DNA from: Deltaproteobacteria bacterium
GTDB lineage: Bacteria; Desulfobacterota; Desulfobacteria; Desulfobacterales; SpSt-501
Reading direction: 5' to 3'
Assembly (NCBI GenBank): GCA_016219005.1
Contig: JACRCN010000046.1
Span: forward strand, 1-64,000
DNA length: 64,000 nucleotides
Positions 25,606 to 63,216 of the stretch are shown here, piece by piece. The notes under the pieces are model-generated. The model made no database searches. It was not told where the DNA came from and saw only the letters and a program-made list of their open reading frames with translations. The translations under genes were made by a program, and so were the position numbers. The stretch's first letter is position 1. Each line of letters begins with the position of its first letter.

Positions 25606-25744
25606 TTGGGTGGCTGCCCCTGAAGGGGGAGCCACTGGCATGACGGTGGATGGGGGCAAAGTGCCTTTCCCATATTCTGGGGCAACCGGGCGCACCGTCA
25701 AATCAAGGGCTCAAGTTGAAGAAAAAAATAAGGGTGACCCCTAA
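25606..25744 (+). repeat. TTGAxxACC short element, copy B, with 44-codon frame
   Basis: It is homologous to copies A and C from 25606 to 25700. A GTG at 25610 opens a 44-codon frame with VAAPEGGATGMTVDGGKV, preceded by AGGA. Compared with copy C over 21 codons, 8 codons differ only at synonymous third positions and 16 of 21 residues are identical. Its 5' end also folds into a hairpin (GTGGCT..CCCC, loop TGAA, GGGG..AGCCAC at 25610-25635). The frame runs into the terminator of the opposing small RNA gene. Confidence 0.6.
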
Positions 25745-25883
25745 TTCCCATCTGAGGTCACCCTGGTATTACATTGAAGTTCAGGAAGTGGATGGGATTT
25801 GAGCTGTGCAGTTCGGTTGATTTCTCAGCCTTTTTGCCTATGCTCCCCACCCGCTTCCTCAGGTCACAGTTTCCTGTGTCCTT
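25722..25883 (-). ncRNA. Structured small RNA, family 1, copy R1
   Basis: This is a leftward ~162-nt transcript inferred from a promoter and a terminator. In transcript order there are four parts. First is a 5' hairpin CACAG-GAAA-CTGTG (25878-25865). Second is a 13-bp helix between 25858-25846 and 25796-25784, with one wobble and one mismatch. Third is an inner variable arm containing GGCAAAAAGGC. Last is a terminator stem AGGGTGACC/GGTCACCCT (25764-25731) followed by TATTTTTTT. Copies at 27.4 and 63.1 kb keep the promoter, the helix, the CCCATCC box and the terminator, with different but pairing stems. No reading frame is shared. I do not recognise the family. Confidence 0.7.
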
Positions 25884-25889
25884 AATTGA

Positions 25890-25918
25890 AGGTTAGGGTT
25901 TCATACTATCGTTGTCAA
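25890..25918 (-). promoter_or_regulatory. Promoter of small RNA R1
   Basis: Leftward TTGACA (25918-25913), a 17-base spacer and TAACCT (25895-25890). The spacer contains ATGAAA at the same position as in the promoters of R2 and R3. Confidence 0.7.
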
Positions 25919-25976
25919 GTATCCGGGAAAAGTTTTTTTGTACCTCCCCCTCCACCGAAATTGAGCGAAGCCCCGA

Positions 25977-26177
25977 TCAGCAATTCTTGCACATTTTGGG
26001 CTCGAAAGAAGCCGGCAGGTTGGAAGCTGAGAATTGGGAGTGCCCGACGCTGAAGCTTGAATAGAGTTTTTTTACTCGACTCCGGCATATGGGGCACTTG
26101 ACTTCGCTATCGGCGCGAATCATCAACTGGTCGAATCTATATTCACATTTTTCGCAGGTATATTCAAAAATCGGCAT
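25977..26177 (-). CDS. FmdB-type zinc-ribbon protein
   Basis: A 66-residue protein with CEKC and CPIC pairs forming one zinc ribbon. The N-terminus MPIFEYTCEKCEYRFD is typical of FmdB-like small regulatory proteins. A Ser-rich linker follows and the chain ends in MCKNC. GGGGAGGTG precedes the ATG at 26177. A longer in-frame start (26312) lies inside the next gene and is not supported. Its role is unknown. The R1 small RNA promoter begins 58 bp downstream. Confidence 0.8.
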   Translation of the reverse strand: MPIFEYTCEKCEYRFDQLMIRADSEVKCPICRSRVKKLYSSFSVGHSQFSASNLPASFEPKMCKNC

Positions 26178-26271
26178 ATATTCACCTCCCCTTCTGATCA
26201 TCATAAACGATAAGCTTTTTATGGGAGTTCGCAAGGGGCAGCATGCCGACCGTTTAAAGAGATCTGCCATA

Positions 26272-26625
26272 TCAGAATACATCGTCAGCATCGTCATCAC
26301 TACATGGGTCAATACCGCTTAATCCTTCAGAAAGTTCATTTAATCCTTTCTTGATCAAATCTGCGTCAGAAAGTCCCTTCAATTTTTTTTGAACTTTAGC
26401 TCCTTTAAAAACCTCATAAAGTGTGTTGGATAGTCTCCATTCTTCAAGCTCATCGGGCTCAAGAAAGTCTTCATCGACACCTTCTGAGTCTTCATAATAT
26501 TTTTTATCTACGGATGTTTGCCGCATGTGTTCAACGTGCGACATTGCAATATCGTATTCTTTTTCAGACAAGATGAGTGGGATGCCATTCCAAACAGCTT
26601 TGAACTCACCAGAAATTTTAGACAT
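26272..26625 (-). CDS. Acidic hypothetical protein
   Basis: A 117-residue soluble protein, not recognised. It starts MSKISGEFKAVWNGIPLILS after a good GGAGGAA site. It is rich in Asp/Glu and Ser, with a mainly helical predicted middle (VEHMRQTS, EWRLSNTLYEVFKGAKVQKKLKG) and an acidic end DPCSDDDADDVF. It lies upstream of the zinc-ribbon gene on the same strand, 94 bp away. AT-rich codon use suggests accessory origin. Confidence 0.65.
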   Translation of the reverse strand: MSKISGEFKAVWNGIPLILSEKEYDIAMSHVEHMRQTSVDKKYYEDSEGVDEDFLEPDELEEWRLSNTLYEVFKGAKVQKKLKGLSDADLIKKGLNELSEGLSGIDPCSDDDADDVF

Positions 26626-26816
26626 TGCATTCCTCCGGATTCGATATCAACCATGGGTATCGCGGGTAATCACTCCTGATTGCTGTCTTCATCTGTCGAA
26701 AGCACCGATAAAGTTGACATCCATGCGCCGTATCTCACTCCGGAAGGATTTGATATTGCTCGGGGGAAGCAGCCTCACCCATGGGAATGAGCGCCAGCAC
26801 AGTCCATAAAACGGAT

Positions 26817-27284
26817 TTAGCCTCCCCGTTTTTCTCTTTTTCGATCAACTTCGTTTTTAACTTCCAACAGATCAATTACCAGCATTTGTCGGGAGCCTCG
26901 AGAGGCGGCTCTCCGATCGCCGACAATCAAAGTGTCTATCATAGAAGTCGGGATTTGGGTCGATATCGCTATGTTTCCTCCCTCTTTAGGATTTTTAGTA
27001 TTCCAAACTACATACCTAAAATTAGATTCCAAATTTTCAGATAAACCCACTTTTCCAATTTCGCTGATAATAAAAGAAATAGAAGAACGATGAAGTCGCA
27101 TGGTTAATAGTTGTTGGAACAGATAAACGTAACACAAATTGTTATAGGTCAGTAGATTTTTGTCGCCTCTTGCCATCGCTTTATGCCAAGATGGTATAAT
27201 AAAGCCTTTCACTATCCAATCTCGTACTCTTGATTTTTCAATTCCTAATATGCGTGAAACTTCATGCACTGAGTAGGTAATCAT
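26817..27284 (-). CDS. MerR-like helix-turn-helix protein
   Basis: A 155-residue protein. The N-terminus MITYSVHEVSRILGIEKSRVRDWIVKG reads as a MerR-type winged helix-turn-helix. The basic-aromatic stretch FIIPSWHKAMARGDKNLLTYNNL and the leucine-rich helix QQLLTMRLHRSSISFIISEIG could support dimer formation. No metal-binding cysteines are present. A candidate DNA-binding regulator; its targets are unknown. Small RNA R2 is transcribed toward it from 27537 and ends about 90 bp before its start. Confidence 0.6.
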   Translation of the reverse strand: MITYSVHEVSRILGIEKSRVRDWIVKGFIIPSWHKAMARGDKNLLTYNNLCYVYLFQQLLTMRLHRSSISFIISEIGKVGLSENLESNFRYVVWNTKNPKEGGNIAISTQIPTSMIDTLIVGDRRAASRGSRQMLVIDLLEVKNEVDRKREKRGG

Positions 27285-27370
27285 ATGACCTCTGGCTCTT
27301 TGTCCTTCCTGTACGCGTTTCGTTTACCCGATGACATTTTGAAAAGCCTCGTTAAGGCCAAGATTACAAT

Positions 27371-27537
27371 AAACGAAACGGGCAACCTTGCAAACTAAAG
27401 GAGGTCGCCCGGGTATTGCAGATACCGGTACATGAAGCGGATGGGTTTTAAGTTGTAGGAAGGCGGGCGGGAAGACCGAAAAGCCTCCTTACAACCGCTC
27501 GCACCCTTTTCCCGGGATTACGGGTTTGCCCGTTGCC
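27371..27537 (-). ncRNA. Structured small RNA, family 1, copy R2
   Basis: A leftward ~167-nt unit, the most diverged copy. It keeps the CCCATCCG box (TTAAAACCCATCCG in the transcript), the opposing GGGTG strand, and a 5' hairpin built of CGGG/CCCG pairs with loop CAAA. The inner arm is longer here (AAGGAGG..CCGCCTT). The terminator stem is CGGGCaACCT (27379-27388) with AGGTcGCCCG (27402-27411), and the T-run is broken (TTTCGTTT). Stem sequences differ from R1 and R3 but still pair. Confidence 0.62.
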
Positions 27538-27543
27538 CGACGA

Positions 27544-27572
27544 AGATTAAAGTTTCATTCCAGATCTGTCAA
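27544..27572 (-). promoter_or_regulatory. Promoter of small RNA R2
   Basis: Leftward TTGACA (27572-27567), 17-base spacer with ATGAAA, and TAATCT (27549-27544). It is back to back with the TTGACA of element R5 at 27619. Confidence 0.68.
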
Positions 27573-27618
27573 GCACCGGCAAAAAAAATCCACGCTGATG
27601 CGAACGGGAAACTATTCC

Positions 27619-35068: not shown

Positions 35069-35226
35069 TTGACAACCGTGCTTGGCAGACGCATCTTAAT
35101 GCCAATGAAGGGAACGGTTGCTATGCCAAAAGGGTCGGCCATCATCCTCCCCTTGTAACATGAGTCAGCCGTCCTCTTCAGATCTCAGGTGGCCTGTTTC
35201 CTCCTTTTCGGGCCACCTCTTTTTTA
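35069..35226 (+). ncRNA. Short transcript with possible peptide, element R4
   Basis: It starts TTGACAACC (35069) and ends in a strong terminator: AGGTGGCC (35187-35194) with GGCCACCT (35211-35218), then CTTTTTTA. The -10 is poor (CATCTT at 17 bases). It shares ATCATCCTCCCCTTG with R5 at the same distance from TTGACAACC. A short frame ATG-CCA-AAA-GGG..IILPL ends in TAA and is preceded by AAGGGA. It is divergent from copy C, as R5 is from R2. Confidence 0.5.
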
Positions 35227-62675: not shown

Positions 62676-62915
62676 CTAAATCTCATCGTCAAGAGGGGTT
62701 TCGCGATCTCGGCAGCTCTGGCAGAATTTGCGAGGAACGCCCCTGCCAATCCATCGCATCTTCATGATGTGCATTTTACCGCAGCCAGGGCAAATGCACT
62801 CCACCTTCGATTTGGCAAAGCTCGACATCTCGGACCCTTCATCAAGCGCCTCGTCAGCATCCTCTAACGGATCTATTGCATTTTTGCGGAAGATGTCGGT
62901 TTTTTGCACTCTCAT
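62676..62915 (-). CDS. Small zinc-ribbon hypothetical protein
   Basis: A 79-residue protein. The N-terminal half is polar and acidic (NAIDPLEDADEALDEGSEM). The C-terminal half has CICPGC and CQSC pairs (IGRGVPRKFCQSCRDRE), forming a single zinc ribbon. GGAGG lies five bases before ATG 62915; an upstream GTG adds four residues. It is convergent with the histidine kinase gene. Small RNA R3 terminates about 100 bp upstream of it. Confidence 0.7.
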   Translation of the reverse strand: MRVQKTDIFRKNAIDPLEDADEALDEGSEMSSFAKSKVECICPGCGKMHIMKMRWIGRGVPRKFCQSCRDRETPLDDEI

Positions 62916-63018: not shown

Positions 63019-63180
63019 AAAAAGGGGCAACCCCGGAAACATATCCAGGGTTGCCCCGGTACTGCAACTTCAGGAATCGGATGGGTTTTAAGCTGTACCC
63101 ACGTAAGATAGCCGTTGAGCCACCTTTTTGGCATCAGCCCCCACCCTCTTCCTTAGGATCATGGTCTCCCGTGATCCTTG
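63019..63180 (-). ncRNA. Structured small RNA, family 1, copy R3
   Basis: The clearest copy, a leftward ~162-nt transcript. Its 5' hairpin is AGGATCA..TGATCCT (63179-63156) with inner GG/CC pairs and a GAGA tetraloop. GGAAGAGGGTGGG pairs in part with CCCATCCGATTCC. The inner arm is GCCAAAAAGGTGGC. The terminator is a perfect 10-bp stem GGGGCAACCC/GGGTTGCCCC (63025-63034 with 63049-63058) followed by six T. R1 has the same layout and length with different, still complementary stems. Confidence 0.72.
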
Positions 63181-63187
63181 GCTGAAA

Positions 63188-63216
63188 AGCTATGATTTCA
63201 TACCTGGCTTGTCAAG
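63188..63216 (-). promoter_or_regulatory. Promoter of small RNA R3
   Basis: Leftward TTGACA (63216-63211), a 17-base spacer containing ATGAAA, and TAGCTT (63193-63188). Confidence 0.7.

Follow-up and report, generated by a model that had tools for sequence, protein, structure and literature searches.

Several kinds of bacterial small RNA invite comparison with the RNA genes described here. 6S RNA forms one long, centrally bulged rod, E. coli naRNA4 and other REP/HU-binding RNAs are multicopy hairpin RNAs, and the LhrC and Cia-dependent sRNAs act via unpaired pairing regions, in some cases together with Hfq. LhrC1-7 and the Cia-dependent sRNAs constitute paralogous sRNA families, and Bacteroides thetaiotaomicron codes for 14 paralogous sRNAs, FopS, that are associated with the RNA-binding protein RbpB (PMC11697453).

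In the window, the whole stretch of 64,000 nt of DNA that was analysed, an initial annotation had read three sites (R1, R2 and R3) as structured small RNA genes with a shared promoter architecture and of an unknown class. The lack of an Rfam match, the recovery of homologues and covariation above that of shuffles support this reading: R1, R2 and R3 are members of a real structured small-RNA family that is uncatalogued in Rfam 15. As judged from sequence, the family belongs to a known general kind, the multicopy autonomous bacterial sRNA, and we regard it as reasonably probable that its members are paralogous, autonomously transcribed, trans-acting noncoding small RNAs of about 160 nt, with a separate transcription unit for each copy.

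The family resembles FopS in being multicopy and mostly intergenic; each FopS copy has its own promoter and terminator (PMC11697453), and each copy here a putative promoter and a terminator-like stem. FopS, however, combines one terminator hairpin with a 5' seed that is left unpaired, whereas the present RNAs begin with a 5' hairpin and are mostly paired, and no sequence relation between the two is claimed. With LhrC and the Cia-dependent sRNAs it shares several diverged copies per genome and a common structure, but those RNAs have unpaired pairing regions and some use Hfq, which was not detected in the genus of the present family. In genetic layout the family may thus be likened to FopS or LhrC, with a more structured RNA. 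The likeness to naRNA4 is that of a multicopy hairpin RNA; HU genes adjoin two of the copies here, a positional link only.

Searching the whole window against Rfam at the gathering threshold, as the annotation had proposed, gave no family at the three sites, and relaxed settings over 25700-27600 gave nothing noteworthy; at the level of titles and abstracts, the literature held no account of this RNA family. It is extremely improbable, in our estimate, that the copies are a divergent 6S RNA or another described Rfam class. Similar length and strong structure speak for 6S RNA, as does the lack of an RF00013 match anywhere in this genome (controls positive), so that a 6S RNA might be present in disguise. 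Set against this are the missing Rfam match and an architecture of three separate hairpins plus a terminator, in 5-6 copies per genome, rather than a single centrally bulged rod.

Copies and their distribution

The elements of the three sites in the window, all on the minus strand, are as follows:

25913-25918, minus strand: −35 element of R1, TTGACA, read directly from the sequence and exact in 11/11 members
25890-25895, minus strand: −10-like element of R1, TAACCT, 17 nt from the −35 element, read directly from the sequence; 3 of 6 positions match TATAAT
25861-25882, minus strand: 5' hairpin of R1 with a GAAA loop, from the fold; compensated across the family
25783-25859, minus strand: main hairpin of R1, with strands AGGAAGCGGGTGGGG (25845-25859) and CCCATCCACTTCCT (25783-25796) and an apical stem between them
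25766-25782, minus strand: unpaired linker of R1 from main hairpin to terminator; mean unpaired probability 0.87
25725-25765, minus strand: terminator-like hairpin of R1, GGGTGACC/GGTCACCC, with a T-run, from the fold
27544-27572, minus strand: promoter of R2, TTGACA-17-TAATCT, read directly from the sequence, with the −35 element at 27567-27572
27375-27538, minus strand: RNA body of R2, with a degenerate main helix, a terminator-like stem (27379-27411) and a weak T-run
63187-63215, minus strand: promoter of R3, TTGACA-17-TAGCTT, read directly from the sequence, with the −35 element at 63210-63215
63019-63178, minus strand: RNA body of R3, with a 5' hairpin (63155-63178), main hairpin, linker, terminator-like stem (63024-63057) and T-run

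The annotation had counted three copies; the family is larger, with six full-length copies (R1-R6) and one truncated copy in this genome of a sulfate-reducer-type bacterium and five full-length copies (S1-S5) in the congener Desulfobacterales bacterium BIN27 (JAUQXK; genome G004), amounting to 11 full-length copies. R4 was detected by DNA similarity. A first covariance model, built from four copies on a MAFFT alignment in which the 5' hairpin was off by one base, retrieved the fifth copy of this genome (R5) at an E-value of 5e-33 and the more diverged sixth (R6) at 6e-12, and covariance-model search likewise yielded S1-S5. R3 is matched by the covariance model, and R2 scores 2.1e-35 as a training member of its model. 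In the truncated copy, X10 (contig C66), the 3' half is lost, whereas the promoter and 5' half remain.

The wider search for homologues that the annotation called for thus brought in further members, but from one congener only, making the distribution very narrow. A second model, built from all 11 sequences, found no credible further member in five other congeners, in 389 genomes of the order or in 395 genomes of the phylum, the order- and phylum-scale searches having been run with stricter filters and only few candidates scored per genome. An exact structural pattern run over 84,980 species genomes recovered four of the G004 copies and otherwise only chance-level matches; neither the same kind of scan applied to viral contigs nor a blastn search of phages and plasmids with R3 returned anything.

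The copies are 68-94% alike, and R1 groups with S1 and S2 at 85%. This grouping, together with an HU locus common to R4 and S3, makes the paralog lineages appear older than the split of the two species.

One further site in the window resembles the family:

35083-35223, plus strand: possible distant paralog, with a three-hairpin layout, an apical segment ATGCCAAAAGGGT and a terminator; 34.8 bits, fold z −4.4

This site has no promoter at the family position, and its score is only 2-5 bits above false positives (29.7 and 32.4 bits). We leave its membership doubtful because the score barely exceeds those of the rejected matches L013 and L036, which show terminator-like stems and little else and were set aside as chance. 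A separate weak match of 27.6 bits in another genome (L035; G006:C241:6238-6325) is a terminator directly after a gene for a His/Tyr-rich small secreted-type protein, and it resembles the family linker and terminator. Homologous His/Tyr-rich genes in G004 are followed by the full copies S1 and S3; the G006 locus, whose score does not set it apart from chance, may be a remnant or precursor of the S1/S3 locus, or possibly an RNA-less version of it.

Promoter, structure and coding potential

At all three sites the sequence reads, as the annotation had it, TTGACA, 17 nt and TAnnnT on the minus strand, followed by an RNA of about 160 nt with a G+C-rich hairpin end. TTGACA is exact in 11/11 copies despite differing flanks (in R3 and S4 it was read by eye from the upstream sequence, the automatic choice having taken another hexamer), and TAnnnT follows at 16-17 nt in nine of the 11. 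The −10 boxes of R1, R2 and R3 agree with the E. coli consensus TATAAT at only 3-4 of six positions, and these poor boxes are the reason why a generic sigma-70 scan did not list the R1 and R2 promoters. The case for putative promoters thus comes from their recurrence across copies and not from the quality of the −10 element; on this reading of the sequence, each of the 11 copies has a promoter of its own, as in other multicopy autonomous sRNAs. Since in most copies 5-9 nt separate the −10 element from the 5' hairpin, transcription is predicted to start at that hairpin, with the 5' end of R1 near 25883. The ATGAAA reported at spacer positions 9-14 is present in R1, R2 and R3 but is not universal in the family, being found in five of the 11 copies.

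In seven copies (R1, R3, R4, R5, S1, S2 and S3) the fold consists of a 5' hairpin, a long asymmetrically bulged hairpin, a linker and a terminal hairpin, and S4, S5 and R6 have the same layout with local differences, R6 keeping the main hairpin in a shifted register. Against 200 dinucleotide shuffles, fold z-scores were −6.0 for R1, −2.3 for R2, −7.0 for R3 and −5.8 for R4; most copies lie at about −4 to −8, with weaker values in R2, R6 and S4. The 5' hairpin and terminator-type stem claimed for all three sites are there, with compensated changes. The conserved long helix holds for R1 and R3 and is doubtful for R2, where its strands are mismatched (GGGTGCG versus CCCATCC) and it is absent from the minimum-energy fold; R2 is the most degenerate copy. 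R2 also has a weak T-run (GTTTCGTTT), in contrast to the good ones of R1 and R3. Across the family the terminal stem is found in 11/11 copies, though weaker in R6, and the U-tract is good in R1, R3, S1, S2 and S5, interrupted in R2, R4, R5, S3 and S4, and absent in R6.

The compensatory change noted from three copies extends to the 11 sequences, where covariation exceeds that of shuffles. Two-sided changes that preserve pairing occur at 13 of 34 consensus pairs versus 6.2 in shuffles, with 0/500 shuffles as high. In the 11-sequence alignment 91.1% of the cells pair, and sliding the partner by 1-3 columns lowers pairing from 91% to 37-51%. The apical stem, excluded from the 34-pair count, has been replaced in sequence in most copies, yet its two sides pair in every one (GGGUGA/UCAUCC, GGGCGG/CCGCCC, GGACG/CGUCC and AAGGUGGCU/GGCUAUCUU). 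This evidence for structure, though strong, should not be taken as conclusive, since fitting the alignment to the structure model biases it toward that structure. In addition, the covariation rests on 11 related sequences because there are only two carrier genomes, and, as several copies have duplicated flanks, part of the conservation could reflect recent descent.

Sequence conservation, expressed as the majority fraction, is highest in the two strands of the main helix (0.90 and 0.93), followed by the terminal stem (0.84), 5' hairpin (0.76), linker (0.72), apical part (0.67) and terminator loop (0.52). As pairing alone would not demand such sequence conservation, the main helix is likely to be a sequence-specific site. 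The linker, with a mean unpaired probability of 0.84, has a UGcA core, and a near-invariant UGA immediately precedes it.

The annotation was also right in finding no common reading frame: the predicted peptides are unrelated, and the 11 copies combine a conserved structure with the absence of a conserved frame. There is one regularity that could suggest coding. In 11/11 copies a start-like codon (GTG, ATG or TTG) lies at the same place, 5 nt after an AGGA-type SD (AGGAAG) inside the main helix, as might be expected of a short mRNA with a self-masked leader peptide. We consider this very improbable, since the peptides range from 3 to >40 residues with no common sequence, the frame is broken in R6 and S5 and gives nonsense in R5 (early stops or frameshifts), and the start-like codon is buried in a stable helix. 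The small-ORF reading was accordingly rejected on the strength of the unrelated peptides and broken frames.

Genomic neighbourhoods

The copies are intergenic, with varied downstream genes. R1 lies after a zinc-ribbon gene (PF09723) and faces a class-V aminotransferase (PF00266), with no downstream gene on its own strand; a palindromic G+C-rich segment (25611-25701; GACGGTG...CACCGTC, GTGGCT...AGCCAC) is situated between R1 and the convergent aminotransferase gene. A gene for DksA, HU or a small Cys-rich protein adjoins six of the 11 copies. Thus, R6 sits after a DksA gene (TIGR02420 above cut-off), R4 is upstream of an HU gene (PF00216), S3 is followed first by a gene for a small Cys-rich protein and next by HU, and R3 is upstream of another gene of the small Cys-rich family. 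S1 and S3 lie after a His/Tyr-rich gene. The Cys-rich family has no Pfam or NCBIfam match, and some members of the genus have several copies of it per genome. Its representative by R3 is coded at 62679-62915 of the window (minus strand), others being found at loci L037-L063, with the motif KSKVECICPxCxKxHIxxxxWIGRGxPRKxCQxCRD. The Cys-rich gene next to R5 (L127; G000:C88) is no longer an open frame, owing to an in-frame TAA plus a frameshift, and the RNA copy is apparently intact.

These associations raise the prospect of a cis-acting leader, an attenuator that controls the downstream Cys-rich gene and HU by switching the terminator-type hairpin. R3, R5 and S3 are directly upstream of the Cys-rich family, R2 is followed by a fragment of it (just its initial codons, joined to the upstream side of a MerR-like gene), R4 and S3 precede HU, and in S3 and R2 the start codon comes about 40 nt past the terminator. 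Yet only about five of the 11 copies precede a Cys-rich gene or HU, so that there is no consistent position upstream of one gene family: R1 lacks a co-directional downstream gene, and S1, S2, S4 and S5 lack a common one. Conversely, Cys-rich genes of relatives, including the closest homologue of the R3 neighbour (in G004), have no RNA upstream; in several relatives the Cys-rich gene is just downstream of an apparent DksA-type zinc-finger gene, without an RNA copy. An unsystematic look also revealed no conserved antiterminator alternative. We therefore judge the cis-leader reading to be distinctly unlikely.

Several copies have flanks in common, over varying lengths: the downstream flank is shared by R2, R5 and S3, the far upstream flank by R2 and R5, the upstream flank by S1 and S3, and the HU region by R4 and S3. 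Part of the family's spread was therefore by segmental duplication. Both species probably have the HU locus in common, and this, along with the flank sharing, points to independent genes retained through speciation rather than to one leader. Synteny with relatives is low at R1, R2 and R3, and clean empty sites are for that reason undefinable.

The same multicopy, genus-patchy pattern with different neighbours, the truncated X10 and the common flanks of varying length would also fit a dispersed repeat or mobile noncoding element (MITE-like or REP-like), with the RNA as a by-product. Several features make this unlikely. No transposase or recombinase was recognised beside most copies when the ORF lists were inspected by eye, and no terminal repeat was seen. 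Further, copies that are 68-94% alike have nevertheless kept the −35 element and the fold, and at least one locus (HU) seems common to both species.

A possible mode of action and its implications

Beyond the observed copies, conserved −35 element, common structure, compensatory changes and absent coding frame, the mechanism we infer is action in trans, without Hfq, via protein binding or RNA pairing. Transcription would start from the promoter with the exact TTGACA within a few bases of the 5' hairpin and end at the G+C-rich terminator-type hairpin, and an RNA folded at both ends should be long-lived. The active site would most likely be the central long hairpin (strands GGAAGAGGRTGGGG and CCCATCCGCTTCC) with the unpaired linker TGAACT..aaTGcAa.ACC, through which the RNA may bind a protein, or else pair by means of the linker or the opened 3' strand. 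Extra copies may provide dosage or act on slightly different targets. Dependence on Hfq is unlikely because Hfq (PF17209) had no match in seven congeners, this genome included, with positive controls detected.

The conserved 3' strand is complementary to an SD-plus-start-codon (SD-plus-AUG) sequence. In the form of a speculative and quite unlikely extension, the family could be a self-masked anti-initiation RNA of an Hfq-less host: the 3' strand CCCAUCCGCUUCCUGAA, complementary to SD-plus-start, would be held by the SD-start mimic of the 5' strand, and a partner protein would gate its access to many messages. Were this true, the partner, e.g. the Cys-rich protein, DksA or HU encoded next to the RNA, would bind to the duplex or open it. 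A genome search with TTCAGGAAGNGGRTGGG gave 16 matches, family included, versus five for a reversed-pattern control; the near-matches outside the family in this genome marked no clear gene starts. Antisense targets via TTCAGGAAGNGGRTGGG were accordingly rejected, as none of the gene starts of the genome was conspicuous as a target.

To our knowledge, few small RNAs have been described in the bacterial group of the host, and the present family is an uncatalogued one with a clear consensus structure, in a genus without detectable Hfq. Its conserved duplex, together with the recurring DksA, HU and Cys-rich neighbours, may offer a handle on how multicopy RNAs act without Hfq, and its narrow and patchy distribution would mark it as an RNA gene family of recent birth and expansion.
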